Shown: positions 1 to 12,654 of the stretch, in pieces
Numbering within the stretch: position 1 is the stretch's first letter
Layout of the letters: every line of letters starts with the position of its first letter
Assembly (NCBI GenBank): GCA_009773355.1
Contig: WRPG01000062.1
Span: 1 to 50,861 of the forward strand
Length of the DNA: 50,861 bases
Source of the DNA: Limisphaerales bacterium
GTDB lineage: Bacteria; Verrucomicrobiota; Verrucomicrobiia; Limisphaerales; SXTU01
Reading direction: 5' to 3'
Position numbers and translations under genes: made by a program
The notes under the pieces: model-generated
What the model was told of the DNA's origin: nothing
Seen by the model: only the letters and a program-made list of their open reading frames with translations
Database searches by the model: none

Positions 1-2171
1 CCCGCGTCCTCCGGCTGCGAGGCCACGAAGGCCCGCTGGTGCGCGGCGGCGCGCTTGAAGTCGCGCGTGGCGGCGAGCACCTGCGCGGCCAGCTCGTGCG
101 CCGCCGGCTCGGCGCTGTCCGCAAGGCGCTGGAGCACCGCGAGCGCGTCGCGCGGGCGGTTCGCGCGGACGAGCAGCCGCGCGTAGGCGAGGCCGTGCGA
201 GGTGTTCGCCGGTTCCTTCAGATGGAGCTTCTCGTAGAGCACCATCGCGGCCTGCCAGTTGCCGTTCGCCTCATACACGCTCGCGACACTCGCGATGAGG
301 CCGAGCTTCTCGACCAGCTCCGGCGTCAGCTCGGTCGTTACAAACCGCTCCGCATCGGTCAGCCGTTTCGCTTGCAGCAGCAGGCTCAGGTAAAACTTCG
401 TCAACTCGTCGTCGCTCCGCAGCTCGGAGTGCGGACGGAGCGCATCGGCGGCATCGCTGAACTGGCCGTCGTCCGAAAGCGAATAGACCAGTTGCCGCCG
501 CAGCGTCGCATCCTGCGGAAACTTCGCCACGCCCCGCTGCAACGCCGCGCGCACCTTCTCCGGGCGGTTGGCGACGCCGTGGAAATACGCGAGGCGCTGA
601 TAGTCCTTCGAGGTCGGCTGCGGGTTGCGGCCCAGCCAAAGCTCCAGGCCATCCGCCGCGACGCCCAGTTGCCCCATGCTTTCCGCGAGCGTGAGGAAGC
701 CCTCGACCGTCGTCTTCTCCGGCGCGCGCTGCACGACCTGCTGATAGTGCGTGAGCGACTTCGCGTAATCGCCGAGCCGGAAGTAGCACTCGGCCAGCTC
801 CCCCAGCGTGGCGACATCGCCGGGCTGCGCCCGCTGGATGCGAAGCAGCACCGGCAACGCGCGGTCATAGTGCGCGAGGTCGAGCAGGAGCCGCGCGTAT
901 TCCTTCAGCAGCGGCGTGCCCGCGCCCGGCTCGCGGATGAGGCTCTGGTAATAGGCGTCCGCCTGCTCGAAGTTGCCGATGCTCGCCTCCAGCCGCGCGA
1001 GAAACGGCGCGTGCTTCTTCCGGTCGAGGAGCTTGCCCGCGTCCGCCAGCGCCTTGGCGAGGTCCGCGTCGCGATACAGGCCGGGCGCGAGCGCGATGAG
1101 CCGCTCGATGGCGGCGGGTTCCTTGAGGCGGAGCGCGATGAGGTAGTGGTCGAAGGCGTCGTTCGGCAGCGTGTTCCACTCGTAGAACTGCGCGAGCCGC
1201 TGATGGTTGACGGCGACATTCGGCTCCAGCGCGACGATTTGCCGGAACGCGGCGATGGCCGCCTTCTGGTCGCCGCTCGCGAGCGCCAGTTCCGCCAGCA
1301 TCCGCCACAGCTCCAGGTTCTCCGGCTGCGCGGCGGCACGCTTCTGAATCTCCGGCAGCAGTTCGCGGATGCGGTCGGACTCGCGCGCGGTGGTCATCAG
1401 CAAACTGAACAGACGCTCCCGGTCCGCCGGCTCGACCACCGCCATCAGCTCGCGGATCGCCTCATACGCCAGACCGGGCTGGCCCGTCTCGCGCAGCAGC
1501 GTGATGCGTTCCCACGCGAGACGCGGCGAGACACGCACGAGCGGCCGGCCCGTGCGGCGCGCGAACTCGTCCACCGCGCGCAGCCCCAGCGCGGGCTGGC
1601 CCGCCGACCGCGTGAGCGCGATGAGCCGGGTGGTGGTGGCGTCGGTCGGGTTTGCCTGCCAGTGCTGCGCGTAAATTTGCATGGCGAGCACGGGCTTCGC
1701 GGCGGCGAGCGCCTTCTTCACCAGCGCCTCGAACAGCGGCGCGCGGACCACGGCGGGCAGCCGGGGCATCACCGGACCGAGCAACTGCCAGGCGGCCTCC
1801 GCGTCCCGCACCTGGTCGAGCAGCGCGGAGATTTCCGTCATGAACTCGCCCTCGAACTTGAACGGCGCGGCGATCTCACAGGCGCGCGCGAGCAGGTTGC
1901 GCAAGGCGACCGGGTCGTCCGCCGCGAGGAGCCGGCGCTCCAACTGGATTTCCAGCAGCGCGAAGCGGCGGGCGTCCTTGGCGCGGTCCTTGTCCGGCAG
2001 CTTGCGGAGCGTTTCGAGCGCCTTGCCCCAAGCCTTGTCCGCGAGCTGGCGCTCCAGCAGGCCGCGATCCGACGGCACGAACCAGAACGCGAGAAACACG
2101 ACCAGCAGCACTCCGCCGACGATGAGTGCGGGCGAGAAGACCAAGGTTGGTTGTTTGGCGGGCCGGGCCAT
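1..2171 (-). CDS. pelB: PelB-like TPR outer-membrane export protein, N-terminal part (runs off the left edge)
   Basis: An open frame of 723 codons begins with ATG at 2171 and stays open to the window edge, so the C-terminus is missing. The protein starts with a short basic cytoplasmic stretch, one hydrophobic segment (about residues 12-32, FSPALIVGGVLLVVFLAFWF), then a long all-helical region with repeated TPR-type pairs such as LAELALASGDQKAAIAAFRQ and LAECYFRLGDYAKSLTHYQQ. Known PelB proteins have an inner-membrane helix, many periplasmic TPRs and a C-terminal beta-barrel through which Pel leaves the cell. The barrel would lie outside the window and is not seen. The gene follows a pelA-like gene on the same strand after 127 bases, the order of canonical pel operons, and this is the main reason for the name. 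A generic TPR protein is the alternative. Confidence 0.75.
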   Translation of the reverse strand, partial: MARPAKQPTLVFSPALIVGGVLLVVFLAFWFVPSDRGLLERQLADKAWGKALETLRKLPDKDRAKDARRFALLEIQLERRLLAADDPVALRNLLARACEIAAPFKFEGEFMTEISALLDQVRDAEAAWQLLGPVMPRLPAVVRAPLFEALVKKALAAAKPVLAMQIYAQHWQANPTDATTTRLIALTRSAGQPALGLRAVDEFARRTGRPLVRVSPRLAWERITLLRETGQPGLAYEAIRELMAVVEPADRERLFSLLMTTARESDRIRELLPEIQKRAAAQPENLELWRMLAELALASGDQKAAIAAFRQIVALEPNVAVNHQRLAQFYEWNTLPNDAFDHYLIALRLKEPAAIERLIALAPGLYRDADLAKALADAGKLLDRKKHAPFLARLEASIGNFEQADAYYQSLIREPGAGTPLLKEYARLLLDLAHYDRALPVLLRIQRAQPGDVATLGELAECYFRLGDYAKSLTHYQQVVQRAPEKTTVEGFLTLAESMGQLGVAADGLELWLGRNPQPTSKDYQRLAYFHGVANRPEKVRAALQRGVAKFPQDATLRRQLVYSLSDDGQFSDAADALRPHSELRSDDELTKFYLSLLLQAKRLTDAERFVTTELTPELVEKLGLIASVASVYEANGNWQAAMVLYEKLHLKEPANTSHGLAYARLLVRANRPRDALAVLQRLADSAEPAAHELAAQVLAATRDFKRAAAHQRAFVASQPEDA

Positions 2172-2298
2172 CAGTGCGTCGCGCTGGCGGGGAGATTACC
2201 TCGTGGAGCAGGATTAGGAGTAGGATTAAGCGCAGGATTTCCAGAGCAGACGTATCTGGCTGAACGGCCCTCTGCCCTGCTCGTAATCCAGCCCCACC

Positions 2299-5200
2299 TC
2301 ACAGCCGCACCTCCACCTTCGCCTCGCCCGGCAGCTCCATCTTCAACATGCCGCCCGCACCGGTCTGCCACGAGGAAGTCCGGCCATTGACGGTGATGCT
2401 TGCGGTCGCACGCGCAGGCAGGCCGGCGAGCGTGACCTGGCAGGCGCGCACATCGCGGACGGTGAAGGCGGCCTCGCGCGCGGCGAGCTTGCTGAACTGG
2501 ATTTCCGCCGTGCTGGCTTCGAGGCGCAGATGCGCGCCGGGCCGCTCGGTCAAGACCAGTTCCACGCGCGGCGAGCCATCGGTGTGGACGTAGAGCGCGT
2601 CCCCGCTCACGCGCCACCCGGTGACGCCCCGGCTGGCGGCGAGGTCGGGCACGAGCGCGGATTTTGGCAGACGGAACGTGCGCAGTGCGCCGCTGTTCAC
2701 CAGCGTCCAGCGCGTGTCCGACTGGCGGAAGACGCGCGTGGCGCGGGCGTCGCGCACGAGGCGGGCGTAGTCGGAGGCGGTGATGGAGTGCAGCTCCTGC
2801 TTCAGCGCCCACTCGAAGAGCCGCGTGAGCGCGTTGAGCGAGGCGAGGTTGTCGCCGCTGTAGAAATGGAAGTAGATGTTGACCGGCTTGAGGCGGCGCG
2901 GGCGCTCCATCCGCTCGAAGCCATCCTCCGCCAGCACGAAACCGCCGAAGAACGGCGACTCCGTGTCGCCGCTCACGGCCCAGCGCTCGCGGTAGATGTT
3001 CTCGTTCTCGTTGGCGGCGGTGATTTGCAGCTCGCCGTCCCACGGCAGCGCACGCGCGGAGACGCGCGTGACGGACGGGCGCTTGCGGCTCATCGCGGTC
3101 TCGCCGCCGTTCATGTTCTCGAGGCCCAGCTCCCGCACGAGGCGCAGCGCCTCCGGCCAGGGACGGCAGTTGCCGGACCAGAGGAAGAGTTTCACCGGCT
3201 TGCCCGGCGGACACAGCTCGCGCTCGATGTAGCGCACGGAGCCTTCAATTTCCCGGCGCAGCTCGACGCCGGTGTGGTTCAGCGGCTCGGCCAGCAGCAG
3301 GTTCGCGCGCTTGTAGTCGCGCACCGTGCGGTCGCCGGCGTTCCAATAAAACGGATGCGTGTAGGCGTGCGACGCGGCCTCGACCTTCGGCATCGCCAGC
3401 ACTTCGCGGGCCTGGCGGGCAAGCAGCGCGGCGTCGCCGGGCTTCTGGTCCACGACCAGCCCGCGGATTTCCGCCTCGATGAACGACACGGTGAACGGAA
3501 ACGGATACTTCTTGATGACGCGCTCGACGATGAGTTCACCGGAGCGTCGGCCCGGCTCCACGCTGGACACATGACGGAAGCCATCGCCGTCAATGTGCGA
3601 GAAGAAAATCCGCACGCCGTCGCACGTGGTGGTGTCCGGCACCGGCAGCACGGCGCGGCCCAGCGCGGCGTGAAAGAAGTAAAACGGGTCCACCAGCCAC
3701 AGCTCGTCGAGGTCGGGCCGGCGGAACAGCGCGTAAGGGTCGAGCAGCATCCCGCCCCACGGCGCGATGAAGAGCGGGTCGAACTGCGCGCCGTCCGCCG
3801 TGGCCAGCGAGAGCAGCACCTCGCTCCCGGCGGGCGCGCGCAGCTCGCGGAACCCGGCGGGCGTGAGATTCAGCGGAGCCTCGAAGTTGAGCTGCTTCGC
3901 GGTCGTCACCGCGCGCAGGCCCGTCACGCTCTTCACCGAACGCCCCGTGCCGCCGCAGCCGAACGCCTTGAGCACGCGCTCATTGAGGGCGTCGTCCGTG
4001 AAGGGCAGCGCCCCGAAGAAGATGACTTTGCGCCCGCGCTGCTGCTGCGCGATGAGCCAGTCCGCGACGGCGGCCTCCTTCGCCCGGGGAATGTGCAGGT
4101 AACGGTCGAGGAGGATGGCGGCGTATTTGGCGTCGAGTTCGGCGGGCAGCTCGTGGGTGTGGACATTGTGATAGTCCACTTCGTAGCCGAGCCATTCGAG
4201 CGACATCTGCGCGACCATCGCGGTGCCGCTGTCAATTGGCCAGCGCACCAAGTCCTCCACATCTGGCTCGGCGTTGCCGAAGAGGGTGAAAATCCAGCGC
4301 GGGACTTCGCCGGCCGGCAGGGGAGTGGCGGGCAGGATGGCGCGCGGGGCCGCAGCCGGCGGCGCGATCACGACCGGCAGCGCGGGCGGCAGCGTGGGCA
4401 CGGTCTTGGGAGCGGGTGCGGGCGCGAGCGCGGCGCGCTTCGGTGGTTTCGGCGCGAGGAACTTCCCGTCCAGTTCCACCGTGCTGATGAAGGGCGTGAA
4501 ACCCTCCGCCGCGATGCGCCGCGCCGTGGCTTCCGCCAGCTTCGGGTCCACCGGGTCCACGTAGTCCACCACATACACCGGCACGCCAGCCTGGCTGATG
4601 GTGCGGAGGATGTTGAGCAGCCAGTCCGTGCCCGTCGGCGCCTCCGGCACATACTTCTTCGCGGCGAAGTCGTATTTCTGGAACACCGACTCGGCGAGCA
4701 CGCCGTCCACGCTGCCGGTCAGCCGGGCGAGCATCGGGAAGCCGCGGTTGAGGATGATCTTGTGCTGCGGAAACTTCGCCTTGAGCTGCTTGATGAGCGC
4801 CACGAGGCCGTCGCGAAATGCCGCACCGCGCTGCGGGAACTTTTTCTCCAGCAGCTCGACACTGTCCGCCGTGTCGAGGAAGAAGCCGCCGAAGCCCTTC
4901 TGCGCCGCGCGGGCCGCCAGCGTGTTCACCACGAAATCCGCCCACGCCGGCTGCGACACGTCCGCGAAGTCGCCCTGCCAGATGTCGTTCTTCCCGAGCA
5001 GCGGGATTTTCCGCGCCGCGACCTCGTGGCGATACGCCGCATCCTTCGCCACCTCCACGACGCTGAGGTAGGCGTAAGCCGGGTGACCCGCGCGCTTGAG
5101 TTCCGCCACGTCCACGCGCGCGTCCGGGCTGAGGATGGAGAAGTCAAAGTCGCGCAGGGCGGCGGCGTCCGGCGTGAGAGAGTAATTGATGCAGAACATC

Positions 5201-5301
5201 GCAGCCCGAACGGACAGGGCCGAAAGGAGCAGGGCGAGCGCAAGCGCGCCCCCAGCGGCAAGACTGGCGGGCCGACGCGACCGCTGGCAGGACAGGCTCA
5301 T
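2299..5301 (-). CDS. pelA: PelA-like periplasmic polysaccharide hydrolase/deacetylase
   Basis: The protein has 1000 residues from ATG at 5301. That start is chosen because it gives a clear signal peptide (SRRPASLAAGGALALALLLS, cleavage near residue 34); the frame opens further upstream but that part is basic and non-conserved. Residues of about 36-285 match the GH114/GH166 alpha-1,4-polygalactosaminidase-like TIM barrel, with GFFLDTAD and GVLAES (the Glu near residue 204 is a plausible catalytic acid). A middle Rossmann-like segment follows (about 330-470). A CE18-type polysaccharide deacetylase has SHIDGDGF near 567 and HAYTH near 648, which look like the metal-binding Asp and HxxxH residues. 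A beta-rich C-terminal tail ends the protein. This order matches PelA, which trims and partly deacetylates Pel in the periplasm. P. aeruginosa PelA is similar in length (about 950 residues). The next gene is pelB-like. Confidence 0.87.
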   Translation of the reverse strand: MSLSCQRSRRPASLAAGGALALALLLSALSVRAAMFCINYSLTPDAAALRDFDFSILSPDARVDVAELKRAGHPAYAYLSVVEVAKDAAYRHEVAARKIPLLGKNDIWQGDFADVSQPAWADFVVNTLAARAAQKGFGGFFLDTADSVELLEKKFPQRGAAFRDGLVALIKQLKAKFPQHKIILNRGFPMLARLTGSVDGVLAESVFQKYDFAAKKYVPEAPTGTDWLLNILRTISQAGVPVYVVDYVDPVDPKLAEATARRIAAEGFTPFISTVELDGKFLAPKPPKRAALAPAPAPKTVPTLPPALPVVIAPPAAAPRAILPATPLPAGEVPRWIFTLFGNAEPDVEDLVRWPIDSGTAMVAQMSLEWLGYEVDYHNVHTHELPAELDAKYAAILLDRYLHIPRAKEAAVADWLIAQQQRGRKVIFFGALPFTDDALNERVLKAFGCGGTGRSVKSVTGLRAVTTAKQLNFEAPLNLTPAGFRELRAPAGSEVLLSLATADGAQFDPLFIAPWGGMLLDPYALFRRPDLDELWLVDPFYFFHAALGRAVLPVPDTTTCDGVRIFFSHIDGDGFRHVSSVEPGRRSGELIVERVIKKYPFPFTVSFIEAEIRGLVVDQKPGDAALLARQAREVLAMPKVEAASHAYTHPFYWNAGDRTVRDYKRANLLLAEPLNHTGVELRREIEGSVRYIERELCPPGKPVKLFLWSGNCRPWPEALRLVRELGLENMNGGETAMSRKRPSVTRVSARALPWDGELQITAANENENIYRERWAVSGDTESPFFGGFVLAEDGFERMERPRRLKPVNIYFHFYSGDNLASLNALTRLFEWALKQELHSITASDYARLVRDARATRVFRQSDTRWTLVNSGALRTFRLPKSALVPDLAASRGVTGWRVSGDALYVHTDGSPRVELVLTERPGAHLRLEASTAEIQFSKLAAREAAFTVRDVRACQVTLAGLPARATASITVNGRTSSWQTGAGGMLKMELPGEAKVEVRL

Positions 5302-5431
5302 TCCGGTAGCAAGTGACGGGAGGATAAAACGCCAGCCCGCCAAGTAAAGCCGTGACCCAGCCGTTGAAAAGCCGGCCAAGCGCGGGCGGCAGGCGAGCCT
5401 GCGAGTGCGCCGGCTCCGGGGCCAACCGGTT

Positions 5432-6382
5432 TCAACCCGCCTGCTTCCTCCGCCGCAGCCGGGCGAAGGGGCGGTGTTTCTCGTGAAGTTCATCGTCCGG
5501 GCTGAAGACGATGAGATTGCCGTCGGCCGGGATGCGCATCGGGCGCGGCCAGCCGCCGCGCGTGAGGGCGTAGGGGTGATAACCGTGCGCGGTAATCTGC
5601 TCGAAGAGCGCCTCGCGGCTGGAACCAACCTCCTCCAGCATGTCGCCGCGCACTTCGATGAGCAGCAGCGGGCGCAACTGGCGCAGCGTCTCCGTCATGC
5701 CGCGCAGCACGAACGGCTCGTGGCCCTCGACGTCAATCTTGAGCACGTCCAGCCGGGTCACGCCGCGCTCCCGCAGGTAGCGGTCGAGCGTGGTGCAGTC
5801 CACGCGCTCGGTGGCGTGGTTCTCGCGATAGACGAGGCTCACCGAAGCGGTGCCGGCGTTGGCCTCCGCGCCGAGGTTGATCTCCATCGTGCCCGCGCGG
5901 TCGGTGATGATGAGCCGCTCGGGGACGACGTTCTGGAGCTGGTTGCGCTCAAGGTTGGACCGCAGGTCGGCGTGCTGCTCGGAGACCGGCTCGAAGGCGT
6001 GGACCTTGCCGGCCTGGCCGACAATGGGCGCGGCGAGCAGGGTGTAATAGCCGACGTTGGAGCCGACATCGAAGAAGACCATGCCGGGCTGGAGGTAGCG
6101 GCGGATGAACTTGGACTCCTTGCGCTCGTAGTTGGGGCCGTTCCACCAGATGGCGTTCTGCACCTCGTCCCAGAGCTTGCAGTTGATGCGCATCCCGCGC
6201 GCGAGCCTGATGACCTGCTGCTTGCGCGTGCGCAGCAGCCAGCGCTCGAAGATGAAGCCGGTGACGCGCCACTTGCCGCGAAAGTAGGGCGTCCGGCGCG
6301 AGAGAAAGCCCAGCGCGCCCAGCAGCGGGCCGACGCGCCGGGGCGGGCCGGCGGCGGAAGGAGGATTGGTGGCGTGGCCCAT
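5432..6382 (-). CDS. FkbM family SAM-dependent methyltransferase
   Basis: The protein has 316 residues from ATG at 6382; an in-frame TTG at 6433 is a possible longer start. The class I methyltransferase motif I is clear (FFDVGSNVGYYTLLAA), followed by HAFEPVSEQ, which fits the ribose-binding acidic loop, and the FkbM hallmark VLKIDVEGHE with IEV further on. FkbM-family enzymes methylate hydroxyl groups of sugars, polyketides or lipids; the substrate cannot be read from sequence. It lies directly upstream of the pelA-like gene on the same strand with a 130-base gap, so a role in modifying an exopolysaccharide or another surface glycan is possible but is only inferred. No signal peptide or membrane segment is seen. 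Confidence 0.88.
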   Translation of the reverse strand: MGHATNPPSAAGPPRRVGPLLGALGFLSRRTPYFRGKWRVTGFIFERWLLRTRKQQVIRLARGMRINCKLWDEVQNAIWWNGPNYERKESKFIRRYLQPGMVFFDVGSNVGYYTLLAAPIVGQAGKVHAFEPVSEQHADLRSNLERNQLQNVVPERLIITDRAGTMEINLGAEANAGTASVSLVYRENHATERVDCTTLDRYLRERGVTRLDVLKIDVEGHEPFVLRGMTETLRQLRPLLLIEVRGDMLEEVGSSREALFEQITAHGYHPYALTRGGWPRPMRIPADGNLIVFSPDDELHEKHRPFARLRRRKQAG

Positions 6383-6475
6383 GCGTGCGCTGGCTGGCGG
6401 CGCATGGTGGTGGGAAGGAAATCCGCGCGTCAACCGAATCCCCGCCCGGCGAAACCGGCCGGCCCGGGGCCGGGC

Positions 6476-7114
6476 CTACTTCTGATTGGCCGGCGCGGGC
6501 GCGGGCGGCGTTTGCAGCGCCCCGGCCGGGGCGGTGGCATTCAACTGGGAGATGATCTCCTCGGTGAGGTCGGGCAGGCTGGCGTTGAAGAGGAGGATGG
6601 GCGTGCCGACGGCGCTCTCGGCGGCGCTGTCCAGGACGGCGGCATAGCCGGCGGCGCGGGCCTTCTTGTTCAGGACCTCGCGGATCTCGGTGACGATCTT
6701 GTCCCGCATGTTGCGCTGCGATTCCCCGAGCTGGGTGCGCGCGCTGCGGTCAAACTGCCCGATGCTCTGCTCGATCTCCTGCAGCTCGCGCAGCTTGGTC
6801 TCGGCGGATTTCTTGCGCTTCTCACGCTCCTCCACGGACACGGCGGAGTCGCTCGCGCTCTCCAGCAGCTTTTTGTATTCGTCGCCGGACTTCTGGTAAT
6901 CGGTGACCATGTCTTTGCGCTTCTTGTCCAGCTCGCCGGCGCGCTCCTTGAGGTTGAGGTCCGCCTGCTTGGTCTTCCAATAGCCGTCGAAGACCTTCTT
7001 GAGGTCCACGATGGCAATGGCACCGGCGGCGGACGCAGGGCGGTCGGCGGATTGCCCGCCCGTCACGAGGGCAAGGACGAGGGCGGCGAGGCAGAGCAGG
7101 GAGAGCGGTTTCAT
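6476..7114 (-). CDS. OmpH/Skp-family periplasmic chaperone
   Basis: The protein has 212 residues from ATG at 7114, chosen because it starts a signal peptide (MKPLSLLCLAALVLALVTGG); an upstream in-frame start would add a non-hydrophobic leader. Mature residues begin with IAIVDLKKVFDGYWKTKQA, the N-terminal strand and helix typical of Skp/OmpH. A long charged coiled coil follows (roughly 45-140), with a C-terminal part (AAGYAAVLDSAAE) that returns to the small beta body. Skp holds unfolded outer-membrane proteins in the periplasm and hands them to BamA, and the gene stands immediately downstream of bamA, the common arrangement. The Ala/Pro-rich tail (PAGALQTPPAPAPANQK) is a short low-complexity extension. 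Family assignment is firm; individual function is inferred. Confidence 0.9.
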   Translation of the reverse strand: MKPLSLLCLAALVLALVTGGQSADRPASAAGAIAIVDLKKVFDGYWKTKQADLNLKERAGELDKKRKDMVTDYQKSGDEYKKLLESASDSAVSVEEREKRKKSAETKLRELQEIEQSIGQFDRSARTQLGESQRNMRDKIVTEIREVLNKKARAAGYAAVLDSAAESAVGTPILLFNASLPDLTEEIISQLNATAPAGALQTPPAPAPANQK

Positions 7115-7207
7115 TGAGGAAAAGAGATGGGGATTACGACCGGGATCAGGCAGCGGAGCCGCCGACTGGCGGCGGGCGTTCGCTTGAGCCTGGTCGCCTT
7201 TCACGGC

Positions 7208-9538
7208 TCAGAAGTCGCGGGTGAAGCCCACGTCGAAGTTGAACCGGCCGCCCTTGTTCTGGTTGCGGTCGGCGGTGATGGGAATGCCGTAGTCCAGGCG
7301 CAGCGGGCCGAGGTTCGGGATGTTGATGCGGAAGCCAAAGCCGACGTTGTCCTGGTAGAGCCGCTCGCCGCGCGCGGTGTTCGGGTTGAAGCTGAAGGAG
7401 CTGCTGTAGACATTGCCGATGTCATAGAACATCGCGAACCGCAGCCGTTCAATGAGCGGGATGTTGTATTCCACCGAGCCAAGCCAGTAGGTGTTGCCGC
7501 CGAACGGCTCGTTGAGCGAGTCGCGCGGGGAGACGTCCGCGAAGCGGTAGCCGCGCAGGGTCCGCGGGCCGCCGAGGAAGTAGCGGTTGAAGAGCGTGAC
7601 CCGGTCGCCGTTGAACGCCTGGACGGAGCCGATGCGCCCGAGGATTTCCCACGTCTGACCCTCCCAGAAGCCGGGGAGGTATTGGGAGCCGCGCAGTTCG
7701 AGCCGGTAGAAATCCGCCTCGCCGCCGACCGGCCCGCCGGCCAGCTCGCTGATCAGCTCCACGCGCTGGCCGCCGGTCGGCACCAGGCCGCCCTTGCGCG
7801 CGTCGTAGGTGATGCCCGCACCGATCTTGGAGACGAGTTGCGTGCCCGCCTCGGCCTTCAACTCCGGCGAGGCGGCGGGATCCACGTTCTTGATGCCCAC
7901 GTCCTCGATCGTGTAGCTGACATTGCCCCGGAAGAAGTCCGTCCACAGCGCGCGCTCCAGACTCAGGCGCATGCCGGTCTGGACCTCGTCGTAGAGCGAG
8001 CTTTGGAAGCTCGTGTTGCGATGGTAGAGATCCACGCCAAACGCCAGCTTGCGGTCGAGGAACCACGGCTCGACAAAGCTCAACAGGTAGTCCTGCCGGC
8101 GCGAACCGTAGCTGGCGCGCAGGCGCATCTTCTGGCCCGCCCCGGTGAACCACGGCGGGTTGAACAGGTCGAAGTTGCCCTGGCTCACCTCGACGAAGCC
8201 CACGACGCTTTCCACCGAGCTGAAGCCCGCGCCCACGGACATGTTGCCGGTGTTCTTCTCCTCGACGCCCACGACGAGGTTCTTGCGGTTCGGCACGTCG
8301 GTCGGCTCCGGCTGGAGGTCCACCTTCTCGAAGTAGTTCAGGTTTTCCAGGCGCTGCTTGGAGAGCTTGACGCGCACCATGTCGAAGGTCTCGCCGGGGG
8401 AGATGGCCAGCTCGCGGCGCAGCACCTTGTCCTTGGTCTTGACGTTGCCCTTGATCTCGATCTTCTCGACGAAGGACTTGTCCTTCTCGTCCACCTGGTA
8501 GGTGACGTCCATGTTGCCCGTCTCGGTGTTGGGCGTGCGGACGGCCGTAATCCGGGAGTCAATGTAGCCCTTGGAGCCGTAGAAATCGCGGATGGTGTCC
8601 ACGTCCTTGCGCTGGCCGTCGGGCGTGAAGGTCTGGCCCGCCGTCATCTTGATGTCCTTCTCAATCTCCGCGCTGGGGAAGAGGCTGTTGCCCTTCACGG
8701 CGACGGCCCCCACCTTGTATTGCTTGCCCTCGAAGAGCTGGAACTTGATGACCAGCCGGCTGGGCTGCGGATACTCGAAGCTCACCTCCTTGATCTCGAA
8801 GTCGAGGTAGCCCTTGTTCCGGTAGAACTCCGCCAGCTTCTCCTTGTCGTCGTCGAACTGGTCGTCCTTGAACTTGTCCGTGCCGGTGAGCCAGGAGAAA
8901 AACCACTTCTCCTTCGTCTTGAGCTGCTTGGCCAGCTCCTTCTCGGTGAAGGCCGCCGCCCCGTTGAACTGGATGTCCACGATCTTGACCTTCGGCGCCT
9001 CCGTGATCTCGAAAGTGATGCTGCACCGGCCCGCCAGCTCGTTGGGCTGGATCTTGTATTCGACTGTGGTGCGCTGGTAGCCGGACTTCTGGTAGCTCTT
9101 CTGAATCGTCTGCGCGTCCGCGAACAGCTTCCGCTCGTCCATCGGCTCGCCGATCTTCGCCTTGATCTGCTTCTGCAGCTTGGCGGTGCTGAACTTGGTG
9201 TTGCCGGTGAACTTGATGTCCGTGAGCAGCATCTTGCCCTGCACCACGTAAATGAGCTTCACTCCGCCATCCACCCGCTCCTCGGCCACGCGGATGTTGT
9301 AGAAATAACCCGTGTTGTAGAGGTTGCGCACGTCGTCATCCACGCTGGTCTTCACCAGCGGGTCGCCGACCTTCACGCGGATGTTGGCGCGGATCAGCTC
9401 GTCGCTGGCGGCGGCGGGGCCGACGTGGCGGACCTCGATCTGCTGCACGCGCTGGGGCGCGACCTGGGCGCGCGATTGCGGCACCCAGTAAATGAGCAGG
9501 GCAAGGAGAAGGCAGGAGCGGCGGAGCAACGGTTTCAT
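7208..9538 (-). CDS. bamA: Outer membrane protein assembly factor BamA
   Basis: The protein has 776 residues from ATG at 9538, with a signal peptide (RSCLLLALLIYWVPQSRAQ). Five POTRA-like repeats fill residues of about 28-430, each with the typical GNTKFS, FNGAAAFTE, VKGNSLFP and IKGNVKTKD turns. The C-terminal half is an Omp85 beta-barrel of alternating aromatic strands. The LRGYRF motif near residue 660 corresponds to the conserved VRGF/Y of barrel loop L6, and the chain ends in Phe (DVGFTRDF), the usual insertion signal. BamA inserts beta-barrel proteins into the outer membrane. It lies between dnaB and an OmpH/Skp chaperone gene on the same strand. Length is close to other BamA proteins (about 800). 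Confidence 0.96.
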   Translation of the reverse strand: MKPLLRRSCLLLALLIYWVPQSRAQVAPQRVQQIEVRHVGPAAASDELIRANIRVKVGDPLVKTSVDDDVRNLYNTGYFYNIRVAEERVDGGVKLIYVVQGKMLLTDIKFTGNTKFSTAKLQKQIKAKIGEPMDERKLFADAQTIQKSYQKSGYQRTTVEYKIQPNELAGRCSITFEITEAPKVKIVDIQFNGAAAFTEKELAKQLKTKEKWFFSWLTGTDKFKDDQFDDDKEKLAEFYRNKGYLDFEIKEVSFEYPQPSRLVIKFQLFEGKQYKVGAVAVKGNSLFPSAEIEKDIKMTAGQTFTPDGQRKDVDTIRDFYGSKGYIDSRITAVRTPNTETGNMDVTYQVDEKDKSFVEKIEIKGNVKTKDKVLRRELAISPGETFDMVRVKLSKQRLENLNYFEKVDLQPEPTDVPNRKNLVVGVEEKNTGNMSVGAGFSSVESVVGFVEVSQGNFDLFNPPWFTGAGQKMRLRASYGSRRQDYLLSFVEPWFLDRKLAFGVDLYHRNTSFQSSLYDEVQTGMRLSLERALWTDFFRGNVSYTIEDVGIKNVDPAASPELKAEAGTQLVSKIGAGITYDARKGGLVPTGGQRVELISELAGGPVGGEADFYRLELRGSQYLPGFWEGQTWEILGRIGSVQAFNGDRVTLFNRYFLGGPRTLRGYRFADVSPRDSLNEPFGGNTYWLGSVEYNIPLIERLRFAMFYDIGNVYSSSFSFNPNTARGERLYQDNVGFGFRINIPNLGPLRLDYGIPITADRNQNKGGRFNFDVGFTRDF

Positions 9539-9612: not shown

Positions 9613-12600
9613 TCAGTCCCGGGGCGCGTCCTCATCGGCGACCTTGGCGGCGTTCTCGAAGCGGGTGAAGCCTTTGAGGAAGGTCAGATGAACATCGCCG
9701 GTCGGGCCGTTGCGCTGCTTGGCGATGAGCAGGTTCACCGGCACGGCGTCGTAGTTGGGCTGCTCGCCGGGGTCTTCGTCGTCCTCCTTGCCCATCTTCG
9801 GCTTGTAGAGCAGGCCCACGAGGTCGGCGTCCTGTTCGATGGAGCCGGACTCGCGGAGGTCGGAGAGCTTGGGCTTCTCGCCGGGACCGCGCTTCTCCAG
9901 TTCGCGGTTGAGCTGGGCGAGGACGATGATCGGCACCTTGAGTTCCTTGGCGAGCGCCTTGATGCCTTGTGAGATGTCGGCGATTTCCTGCTGGCGGTTC
10001 TCCGCCTTCTTGGCGGTGCTGCGGAGGAGCTGGAGATAATCAATAACGAACAGCTTCACGTCGTGCTGCTGGTGCATCCGGCGGGCTTTGGCGCGGAGCT
10101 GGAGGATGCTGAGGCCGGCGGTGTCGTCAATGAAGAGCGGGCAGCCCGCCATCTTGCCGGCGACGGCGGTGAGCTTGGGAAAATCGCGCTCGGCGAGGAA
10201 GCCCTCGCGGATGTCGCGCAGGTTCACGCGGGCGCGCGAGCAGAGCATGCGCAGCACGAGCGAGTCGGCGGACATTTCCAGGCTGAACACGCCCACGGGC
10301 AGCCGCAGGTCCATCGCGACGTGCTCGGCGATGTTCATGGCGAGGGAGGTGTTGTGAACACAGATGTCGTTGGCGATGAAGTTGTGGGTGCCGGGGATGG
10401 TCAGGTCGTAGACCTGTTTCGCCCCGAGCGGCTCAATGGACTCAACCCGATCCCAGAACACGTCGCTCGCGGCAAGATGCGCAAACTCCGCATTGTTGAG
10501 CGCCTGGGCAAACTGGGCGAGGCGCGGGCGGGACAAAGACCGCTTCCCCACATGAACATTGGTCCAGCCGCGAATCCCGGCCCGCCGCGCCAGCGCCGAC
10601 CACGACTCCACACCTTTCGCCGCCGCAAGGCGCGGCCAAATACTCTTTGGAATCAAATCCACATTGGTCTGCCGGCGGCGGGAGGACAGTGCGCGCCGAA
10701 CGCGCCCGACCGCCTCTTCCTTGCCGAAGATCCCGATTTCCGAAGCAAAGCGCGATAATGACTCGCGGTCGGTCACTTCAAGCTGGAAGCTGCCGCGCCA
10801 CTCACCCTCATAGCGGACCCGCTTGGCCCGGCGGCGGACGGTGATACCGAAACGCAGCAGCAAATGCTGTATCTGGCGAGCCATGCGGACGCTGACGGTG
10901 GCATAGCCGATTTGCGGTGCACCGTTGCGGTCCACGGAAGCCCAGCCATCCGTGGCAAAGAGGCGGTTGAGGAACAAGGCCAGTTGCGCGCGCGGCAATG
11001 TGAACACCGGCGGCGGGAGATGTTTCTGCCATGCATCCGCACCCGCCAGGCCCAGCTTCTCCAGCCAGAGCGCGAGCGGATTGCGAGCGTTGGCGCTGAT
11101 CGCCTCGCGGTCGGAATCAGCCAGCTCTTCACCATGCACATTCAAATGGCGGCAAAGCTCCGCCCAATGCCCTTCATCCGGCACGCAGCGCCCTCGCTGC
11201 CACGCCGTCAGCGATGACGGGCTGGCATCAATCGCCAGCGCCACGCTGCGCGCCGAAACTCGCCGGGACCGCAGCAGCCGTCGCAGCCGTCCTGCAAACC
11301 GTGCGCGGCCCTGCTCCACTTGCGCCGCGTCAGATGACACGCGGAGCGAGGGCGTGCGCGTGCCGCGCGAATCGAACTCCCGCACCGTCAGCCCGCCAAA
11401 TTCAGCCGCCGCCTCGGCGAATTCCCGCCGGATGCGCTGGTTCCCGTTGGTGAAGCTCGGCGAAGAGCGCGTCAGACAGCCGTCACCGAGCAGGTAGGCG
11501 AGCAGTTTCACTTCGCACTCCCGCCGAGCTTGGCTGCCGAAGACAGGCAACGCGCGCGGCACGGCGATGAAGTCCCCCGCGCGCAACTCGCCCAACGGCT
11601 TCCAACCATCCAGCGTCAGAAACGGATGCGGTTGCGTGGCTTCAACCTCGCGCCCCAGCCGCGTAGTCACCCGGAAGACCGGCTTGTGCCCGTCGTCCAC
11701 AAAACCCGATGGTGAGGCAGGCACTATCTTGAAATCTTCTCGCACCGTGAACAGCGCTGCCTGCTTCGCCTGAAACAGTTCCTCAATCGTGGCGAGTCGT
11801 CCATCCGCCAGCAGAATTTCCGATGCGGCGCTCAGGCACTTGCCCATCGAAGGCCGCGCGGCGATGACGATCATTTCCCCGCCGTGGAAGCCGGTGGTCA
11901 TCTTGTCCAAGTCCGTGAACCCGGTGGCGATGCCCGTGGTCTGGCCCTGCCGCGAGTGGAAGTCCTCGATCTGCGCGATGGCCTTGTGGACAAGGTCCTT
12001 CATCACGAGGCTGACGGTCTCCTCGCGCTCCTCGCTGATGTGGAGGACTTCCTTCTCCACTTCGTCGAGCAGGGACTCCACGTCGCCTTGCTGCTCCTCG
12101 TCGTAGATGCGCCCGATGACGCTGGAGCAGGTCTGGATCATCCGCCGGAGCAGGTGCTTCTCGACCACGATGTCCGCGTAGAAAGGCAGGTTCGCCGCCG
12201 AGGGTGTGGCGTCCACGAGCGCGGTGAGGTAGGCCACGCCGCCGATGGCGTCGAGCTGGCCCTTGTCCTTGAGCCGCTGGCGCACGGTGATGAGGTCAAT
12301 CGCCTCCTTCGCGTCATACATCGCCACGAGCGTCTCGTAGAGCGACTGGTGGCGGAGGTCGTAGAAGGCGGCGGAGGCTCCCGCGTGGGGATTGGGCGTG
12401 GGCGCGTCGCGGCGGCTCGACGGGGCGTTGGTGCTGTCATCGCGGCGGGATTTGAACTTCTCGACGCAGGTGCCGATGGCGGCGTTGGGATCGAGCAACA
12501 TGCAGCCCAGCACGCCTTGCTCGGCCTCAATGGAATGCGGCGGCAGGCGGTCAACCTTCGAGAGGTCAATGGCAACGTCCTTCCGGCGGCGCGTGCGCTT

Positions 12601-12654
12601 CAGGTCCGGCGGGGCGGACGACGGCTCGACGGGCAGGTCAACGGAATCAATCAC
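9613..12654 (-). CDS. dnaB: Replicative DNA helicase DnaB with an intein in the Walker A motif
   Basis: The 1013-residue precursor starts at GTG 12654. Residues 1-272 and 769-1013 together form a normal 517-residue DnaB: N-terminal domain with LPPHSIEAEQGVLGCML, linker helix, then the RecA-like ATPase with ARPSMGK (interrupted), IDYLQLL (Walker B), AQLNRELEKR, SDLRESGSIEQDAD and AKQRNGPTGDV. Residues 273-768 are an intein placed exactly between Lys and Thr of the P-loop, so helicase activity needs splicing. DnaB unwinds DNA ahead of the replication fork. The N-terminal domain also carries a short insertion (about residues 69-94, Ser/Arg/Pro-rich) not expected in the family. The gene is followed by bamA after 74 bases. 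Confidence 0.96.
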   Translation of the reverse strand: MIDSVDLPVEPSSAPPDLKRTRRRKDVAIDLSKVDRLPPHSIEAEQGVLGCMLLDPNAAIGTCVEKFKSRRDDSTNAPSSRRDAPTPNPHAGASAAFYDLRHQSLYETLVAMYDAKEAIDLITVRQRLKDKGQLDAIGGVAYLTALVDATPSAANLPFYADIVVEKHLLRRMIQTCSSVIGRIYDEEQQGDVESLLDEVEKEVLHISEEREETVSLVMKDLVHKAIAQIEDFHSRQGQTTGIATGFTDLDKMTTGFHGGEMIVIAARPSMGKCLSAASEILLADGRLATIEELFQAKQAALFTVREDFKIVPASPSGFVDDGHKPVFRVTTRLGREVEATQPHPFLTLDGWKPLGELRAGDFIAVPRALPVFGSQARRECEVKLLAYLLGDGCLTRSSPSFTNGNQRIRREFAEAAAEFGGLTVREFDSRGTRTPSLRVSSDAAQVEQGRARFAGRLRRLLRSRRVSARSVALAIDASPSSLTAWQRGRCVPDEGHWAELCRHLNVHGEELADSDREAISANARNPLALWLEKLGLAGADAWQKHLPPPVFTLPRAQLALFLNRLFATDGWASVDRNGAPQIGYATVSVRMARQIQHLLLRFGITVRRRAKRVRYEGEWRGSFQLEVTDRESLSRFASEIGIFGKEEAVGRVRRALSSRRRQTNVDLIPKSIWPRLAAAKGVESWSALARRAGIRGWTNVHVGKRSLSRPRLAQFAQALNNAEFAHLAASDVFWDRVESIEPLGAKQVYDLTIPGTHNFIANDICVHNTSLAMNIAEHVAMDLRLPVGVFSLEMSADSLVLRMLCSRARVNLRDIREGFLAERDFPKLTAVAGKMAGCPLFIDDTAGLSILQLRAKARRMHQQHDVKLFVIDYLQLLRSTAKKAENRQQEIADISQGIKALAKELKVPIIVLAQLNRELEKRGPGEKPKLSDLRESGSIEQDADLVGLLYKPKMGKEDDEDPGEQPNYDAVPVNLLIAKQRNGPTGDVHLTFLKGFTRFENAAKVADEDAPRD
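10351..11838 (-). mobile_element. DnaB intein with LAGLIDADG homing endonuclease
   Basis: This 496-residue intein (precursor residues 273-768) begins with Cys (CLSAASEILLADG) and ends with YDLTIPGTHNFIANDICVHN, followed by Thr as the first residue of the C-extein. The Cys1, the TQPH block-B motif, and the terminal His-Asn are intact, so it appears able to splice. Two LAGLIDADG-type helices are seen, LLAYLLGDGCL near 384 and LALFLNRLFATDGWA near 558, with their acidic residues kept, suggesting an intact homing endonuclease. Between them lies an unusually long spacer containing a helix-turn-helix-like stretch (ARSVALAIDASPSSLTAWQR), and a second HTH-like stretch (SWSALARRAGIRGWTNVHVG) lies before the C-terminal splicing block. 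The insertion point is a known DnaB intein site. Confidence 0.95.
12373..12450. repeat. In-frame low-complexity insertion in the DnaB N-terminal domain
   Basis: This stretch encodes about 26 Ser/Arg/Asp/Pro-rich residues (DDSTNAPSSRRDAPTPNPHA) between the helices ending KFK and beginning AAFYDLRHQ, where DnaB proteins normally have a short turn. The DNA contains the word tcgcggcgg twice. It resembles a short repeat element inserted in frame, but only this one copy is seen here, so its nature is uncertain. Confidence 0.4.

Follow-up and report, generated by a model that had tools for sequence, protein, structure and literature searches.

The window, which is the whole stretch of 50,861 nucleotides analysed here, very probably contains one end, PelA-PelB1, of a Pel exopolysaccharide system that is complete in the genome but, in this uncultured genus, no longer forms its ancestral pelA-B1-B2-C-D-E-F-G operon and is split into three loci. 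Judged by its genes, the Pel system of the genus is best read as a working and inherited system with a broken-up operon. Because the window comprises the entire contig C152 of a draft genome (G000, 6.16 Mb in 162 contigs), the rest of the pel set was sought across this genome. It belongs to the Verrucomicrobiota and is of the PVC type, as an earlier note made from the sequence had supposed. The window encodes the following features on the minus strand:

2299..5301 (-): pelA, periplasmic Pel hydrolase/deacetylase of 1000 aa (PDB and model matches, dN/dS)
4453..5196 (-): GH166 (alpha-1,4-N-acetylgalactosaminidase) part of PelA (match to the Pseudomonas aeruginosa GH166 domain 5tcb, E=2.6e-31; alignment A3)
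2740..3645 (-): CE21-type deacetylase part of PelA, limits approximate (alignment to 9cgy)
3583..3597 (-): HIDGD motif of PelA with H569, D571, and D573 (9cgy alignment; invariant in A3)
3355..3369 (-): HxxxH metal site of PelA with H645 and H649 (9cgy alignment)
1..2171 (-): pelB1, the PelB half with the inner-membrane helix and the TPRs, truncated at the contig end (TPR families)
5432-6433 (-): FkbM methyltransferase (family search)

The gene at 2299-5301(-) is a true pelA encoding a GH166 and a CE21 part with the full set of catalytic residues. The solved structure of Pseudomonas thermotolerans PelA (9cgy) aligns to both halves of the protein (E=1.9e-110), and the Pfam GH114 family matches as well (1.4e-14). 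The comparison of the predicted structure and its sites, which the earlier note had proposed, supports this assignment: the AF2 model (pLDDT 80) has 9cgy as top PDB match (E=9.5e-68), the three top matches being 9cgy, 5tcb, and 5tsy, and the residues of the HIDGD and HxxxH motifs align. Residue equivalences were obtained by counting along the alignments to 9cgy and to the P. aeruginosa GH166 domain. In the GH166 part, D143 corresponds to P. aeruginosa D160 and E204 to E218, and both are invariant in alignment A3. In the deacetylase part, H569, D571, and D573 correspond to H526, D528, and D530, H645 and H649 to H600 and H604, E767 to E723, and H812 to H761. Of these, D528 is the base, D530 binds the metal, and H600 and H604 are metal ligands (PMC12022489). 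Alignment A3 shows little or no variation at the listed catalytic residues, with the exception of H649. This second metal-binding histidine of HxxxH is replaced by Q in two PelA proteins:

L061:9526-12600: PelA of G145, a congener, with Q for the second HxxxH histidine
L077:1629-4436: PelA of G172, with the same replacement

On the minus strand PelA is followed after 127 bases by a PelB-type protein with a membrane helix and TPRs, as the earlier note had described; the frames and the PDB and family matches confirm this far beyond chance. The pelB1 frame starts at 2171(-) and is still open where the contig ends at position 1, 723 aa later. Its product has a single N-terminal hydrophobic helix and many TPRs (family search), and the full-length frames of the congeners (about 761 aa) likewise comprise an N-terminal membrane helix and TPRs without a barrel. 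The last 27 codons are encoded at bases 3-86 of another contig of the same genome, C13, whose start must therefore lie about 30 bp from the left end of the window. There the second half follows:

G000:C13:249-2951: pelB2, barrel half of PelB

In the congeners pelB2 is also the next gene after pelB1, in the same direction. Its product, 555-930 aa long, carries a signal peptide and TPRs and has a C-terminal barrel whose last residues are aromatic-F. The AF2 model of PelB2 has a pLDDT of 53 overall: the first 400 residues are poorly modelled, and only the TPRs and the barrel are good. TPRs and 15 strands are visible in it, and the fold search ranks the PelB barrel 9h80_M as its top PDB match (E=5e-12); the search of the PDB by sequence alone gave only TPR matches. 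Thus, the inner-membrane helix, the TPR scaffold, and the C-terminal barrel that define PelB are found in two adjacent genes instead of one polypeptide. Beyond pelB2, C13 encodes a PLP decarboxylase and other genes but no pelC, and none of the genes pelC to pelG was found next to pelA-B1-B2 in the window or its continuation. The PLP decarboxylase, of the ornithine/DAP type, is often located 3' of pelB2 (e.g. L149:3076-4425).

The earlier note had regarded the lack of pelC-G to the left of position 1, or a PelB frame without a C-terminal porin domain, as speaking against Pel. Literally, both were found: C13 carries none of these genes, and pelB1 has no porin. However, the porin is encoded by the adjacent pelB2 and the other genes are present elsewhere in the genome, so that the Pel reading survives. 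What had been taken for the start of a pel operon does have the pelA-pelB order, but it does not belong to a pelABCDEFG operon, the remaining genes being found at two other loci of the genome:

G000:C52 (locus L003) 8696-9388 (-): pelC
G000:C52 (locus L003) 7075-8544 (-): pelD
G000:C52 (locus L003) 5864-6976 (-): putative pelE
G000:C52 (locus L003) 3925-5571 (-): pelF
G000:C62, L004:10486-11865: pelG, alone (PelG exporter family PF16933)

PelC has the lipobox (..ALAGC) of an outer-membrane lipoprotein and matches the solved PelC structures 5t11/5t10 (E=1.3e-16) and 9h80 (2e-10). PelF matches DUF3492 (E=7e-84) and GT4 as expected for this glycosyltransferase, and PelG matches PF16933 with E=1.9e-124; both are present in one copy each. 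PelD is only weakly matched by sequence (solved PelD E=0.0024 with the RxxD aligned, GAF_3 just over the cut-off, Pfam PelD_GGDEF below it). Its architecture consists of membrane helices, a GAF domain, and a GGDEF-like domain with the RxxD c-di-GMP site, which is kept in all Verrucomicrobiota PelD proteins aligned. Between its membrane segments PelD (L003:7078-8544 in G000) contains about 43 inserted residues in G000, G126, G145, G161, and G197, which G077, G186, and other families do not have. A putative PelE was assigned by its place between pelD and pelF and by its membrane helices and TPRs, both of which fit; there is no family model. The tetranucleotide profiles of the four pel contigs match each other. 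Neither a riboswitch nor any other Rfam RNA was matched at the three loci. The FkbM methyltransferase, which according to the earlier note could modify the Pel product, is not supported as a member of the system and is not a conserved neighbour, as no fkbM match is found near pelA in any congener. The window also encodes a replicative helicase DnaB (9613-12654, minus strand), which is split by an intein that combines splicing and LAGLIDADG domains and has a helix-turn-helix match.

By analogy to Pseudomonas and from what is established for Pel (PMC7112168, PMC12022489, PMC12141448), PelF would polymerise a GalNAc-type polymer, and PelD, PelE, and PelG would form an inner-membrane complex that is turned on by c-di-GMP at the RxxD site of PelD. 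In the periplasm PelA would partially deacetylate and cut the polymer, which could then be exported through PelB1 (inner-membrane helix and TPRs), PelB2 (TPRs and a 16-strand-type barrel), and the PelC ring. The two PelB halves are supposed to act jointly, the product would be a partly deacetylated alpha-1,4-GalNAc polymer, and a role in biofilms is presumed. It could also be that the system works but makes a polymer other than Pel, with a different sugar or modification. The authors of PMC7112194 caution that divergent pel loci may produce other polymers, and the PelF proteins here are distant from the Betaproteobacterial PelFs that served as outgroup in the tree. However, D143 and E204 of the GH166 part, the CE21 site, and the RxxD of PelD are all retained, which points to a substrate of the GalNAc type and an unchanged switch, and another polymer seems rather unlikely.

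PelG is present in eight of the eleven genomes of the genus that were compared, and in all eight (G000, G077, G105, G126, G145, G161, G186, G197) PelA, PelF, and PelG are encoded at separate places. The genomes compared are mostly fragmented MAGs and linkage was derived from contig coordinates; as far as the contigs extend, the modules have the constant content AB1B2, CDEF, and G. The canonical contiguous pelABCDEFG operon is found neither in G000 nor in its seven congeners. Given that pelB1 of the window stops at a contig edge and that G000 consists of 162 contigs, an ordinary operon could have been broken at contig ends or mis-joined. This explanation is largely refuted and extremely unlikely: in G077 each of the three loci has other genes on both sides within its contig (58, 51, and 90 kb), in G186 the AB1B2 and CDEF modules are 21 kb apart on a single contig, and C13 passes from pelB2 into other genes. 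In addition, the same divergent agmatine deiminase adjoins pelCDEF in six independently assembled genomes, which is wherever the contig reaches (G000, G077, G145, G161, G186, G197). This agmatine-deiminase-type gene faces pelC (L062:5239-6402) and is, like the PLP decarboxylase near pelB2, a polyamine-type enzyme. In G145 and G105 pelG adjoins galM-like and AMP-ligase genes, and in G000 the homologous pair is located beyond mutS from pelCDEF, an arrangement suggesting that the distance between pelG and pelF was formerly only about 10 kb. Several public MAGs of the genus are mistitled as Proteobacteria, Klebsiella pneumoniae, or Akkermansia muciniphila (L083, L084, L086, L087).

Outside the genus, pelF and pelG are adjacent in all eleven pel-positive Verrucomicrobiota (G091, G111, G114, G172, G412, G432, G469, G517, G531, G564, and, across a contig gap, G134), and an intact pelA-B1-B2-C-D-E-F-G operon is found in G469 (on one contig) and G114. 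The contrast of none of eight to eleven of eleven probably goes back to a single event on the stem lineage of the genus, and therefore no p-value is claimed. G432, from another family of the class, is also dispersed, with AB1B2 on one contig and DEFG on another (L130-L133), and carries in addition two proteins encoded on their own, a PelA of the deacetylase type and one protein of the GH166 type. A PelA-like protein without the GH166 part is encoded in Verrucomicrobiaceae MAGs (L096:9764-16492, also L095 and L097), where membrane-TPR and TPR-barrel proteins follow and pelC-G are absent within the DNA examined.

Within the phylum the occurrence of Pel is rare and patchy, with PelG above the cut-off in 7 of 388 genomes, as might be expected if the three modules had been gained separately by horizontal transfer. 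However, the PelA, PelF, and PelG trees agree in placing the genus as one clade among the operon-keeping families of its order, which makes separate gains very unlikely. Just as improbable is that the genes are decaying remnants of an operon that was scattered because it was no longer needed. Three genomes of the genus lack PelG, two of which, where checked, also lack PelA and PelF, and G048 and G036 of the same order carry pel remnants. But the genes are intact in eight species, and pairwise dN/dS values against G000 are between 0.06 and 0.32 (pelA, B1, D, F, G; 0.16-0.26 for pelA within the genus) with no internal stops, showing purifying selection. In G048 an N-terminal fragment of pelA abuts a C-terminal fragment of pelG (contig C15, L080:8046-8452), as if the operon in between had been deleted.

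An inherited Pel system with a broken-up operon means that a set of Pel genes need not form an operon to be complete and under selection. Surveys demanding contiguous operons would overlook or misjudge such dispersed sets. The relatives with intact operons in the same order provide a clean case for what follows operon loss in a multi-protein envelope machine. With the stable three-way split, export and modification by AB1B2, c-di-GMP-gated synthesis by CDEF, and transport by PelG may each be driven by a promoter of their own. This is a speculative and improbable idea; if true, the control of Pel assembly would be unlike that of every operon-encoded Pel system.

Parts of this arrangement have already been published: PelA in Verrucomicrobiota (PMC12022489) and, for other taxa, both the fission of pelB and rearrangements of pel genes (PMC7112194). 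The earlier note had expected a locus here to broaden the range of Pel, which does not hold given the known Verrucomicrobiota PelA homologues, full-length as here. Text searches of the literature found no description of a complete Pel set in three loci across a genus, which does not prove its absence. Compared to the P. aeruginosa pelABCDEFG operon, all seven functions are present, PelE putatively, with the same order of the two PelA enzymes and the same catalytic residues, a PelC lipoprotein, a GAF-GGDEF PelD with RxxD, and the PelF and PelG families. However, the genus has three loci and PelB as two proteins, and the long proline-rich N-terminal region of pelB2 is unlike P. aeruginosa. In pel operons of aquatic thermophiles PelB is likewise split into separate genes and rearrangements occur (PMC7112194, Fig 5 iii), but there the fission was described for one operon neighbourhood, whereas the dispersal here is genus-wide. 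The Gram-positive pelDEADAFG operon shares the PelD, PelF, and PelG core and the c-di-GMP control but has no PelB and PelC (PMC7112168), while the genus keeps the outer-membrane parts. Every PelA with a searchable genome has been found to sit in a pel operon (PMC12022489), to which the genus is the exception.
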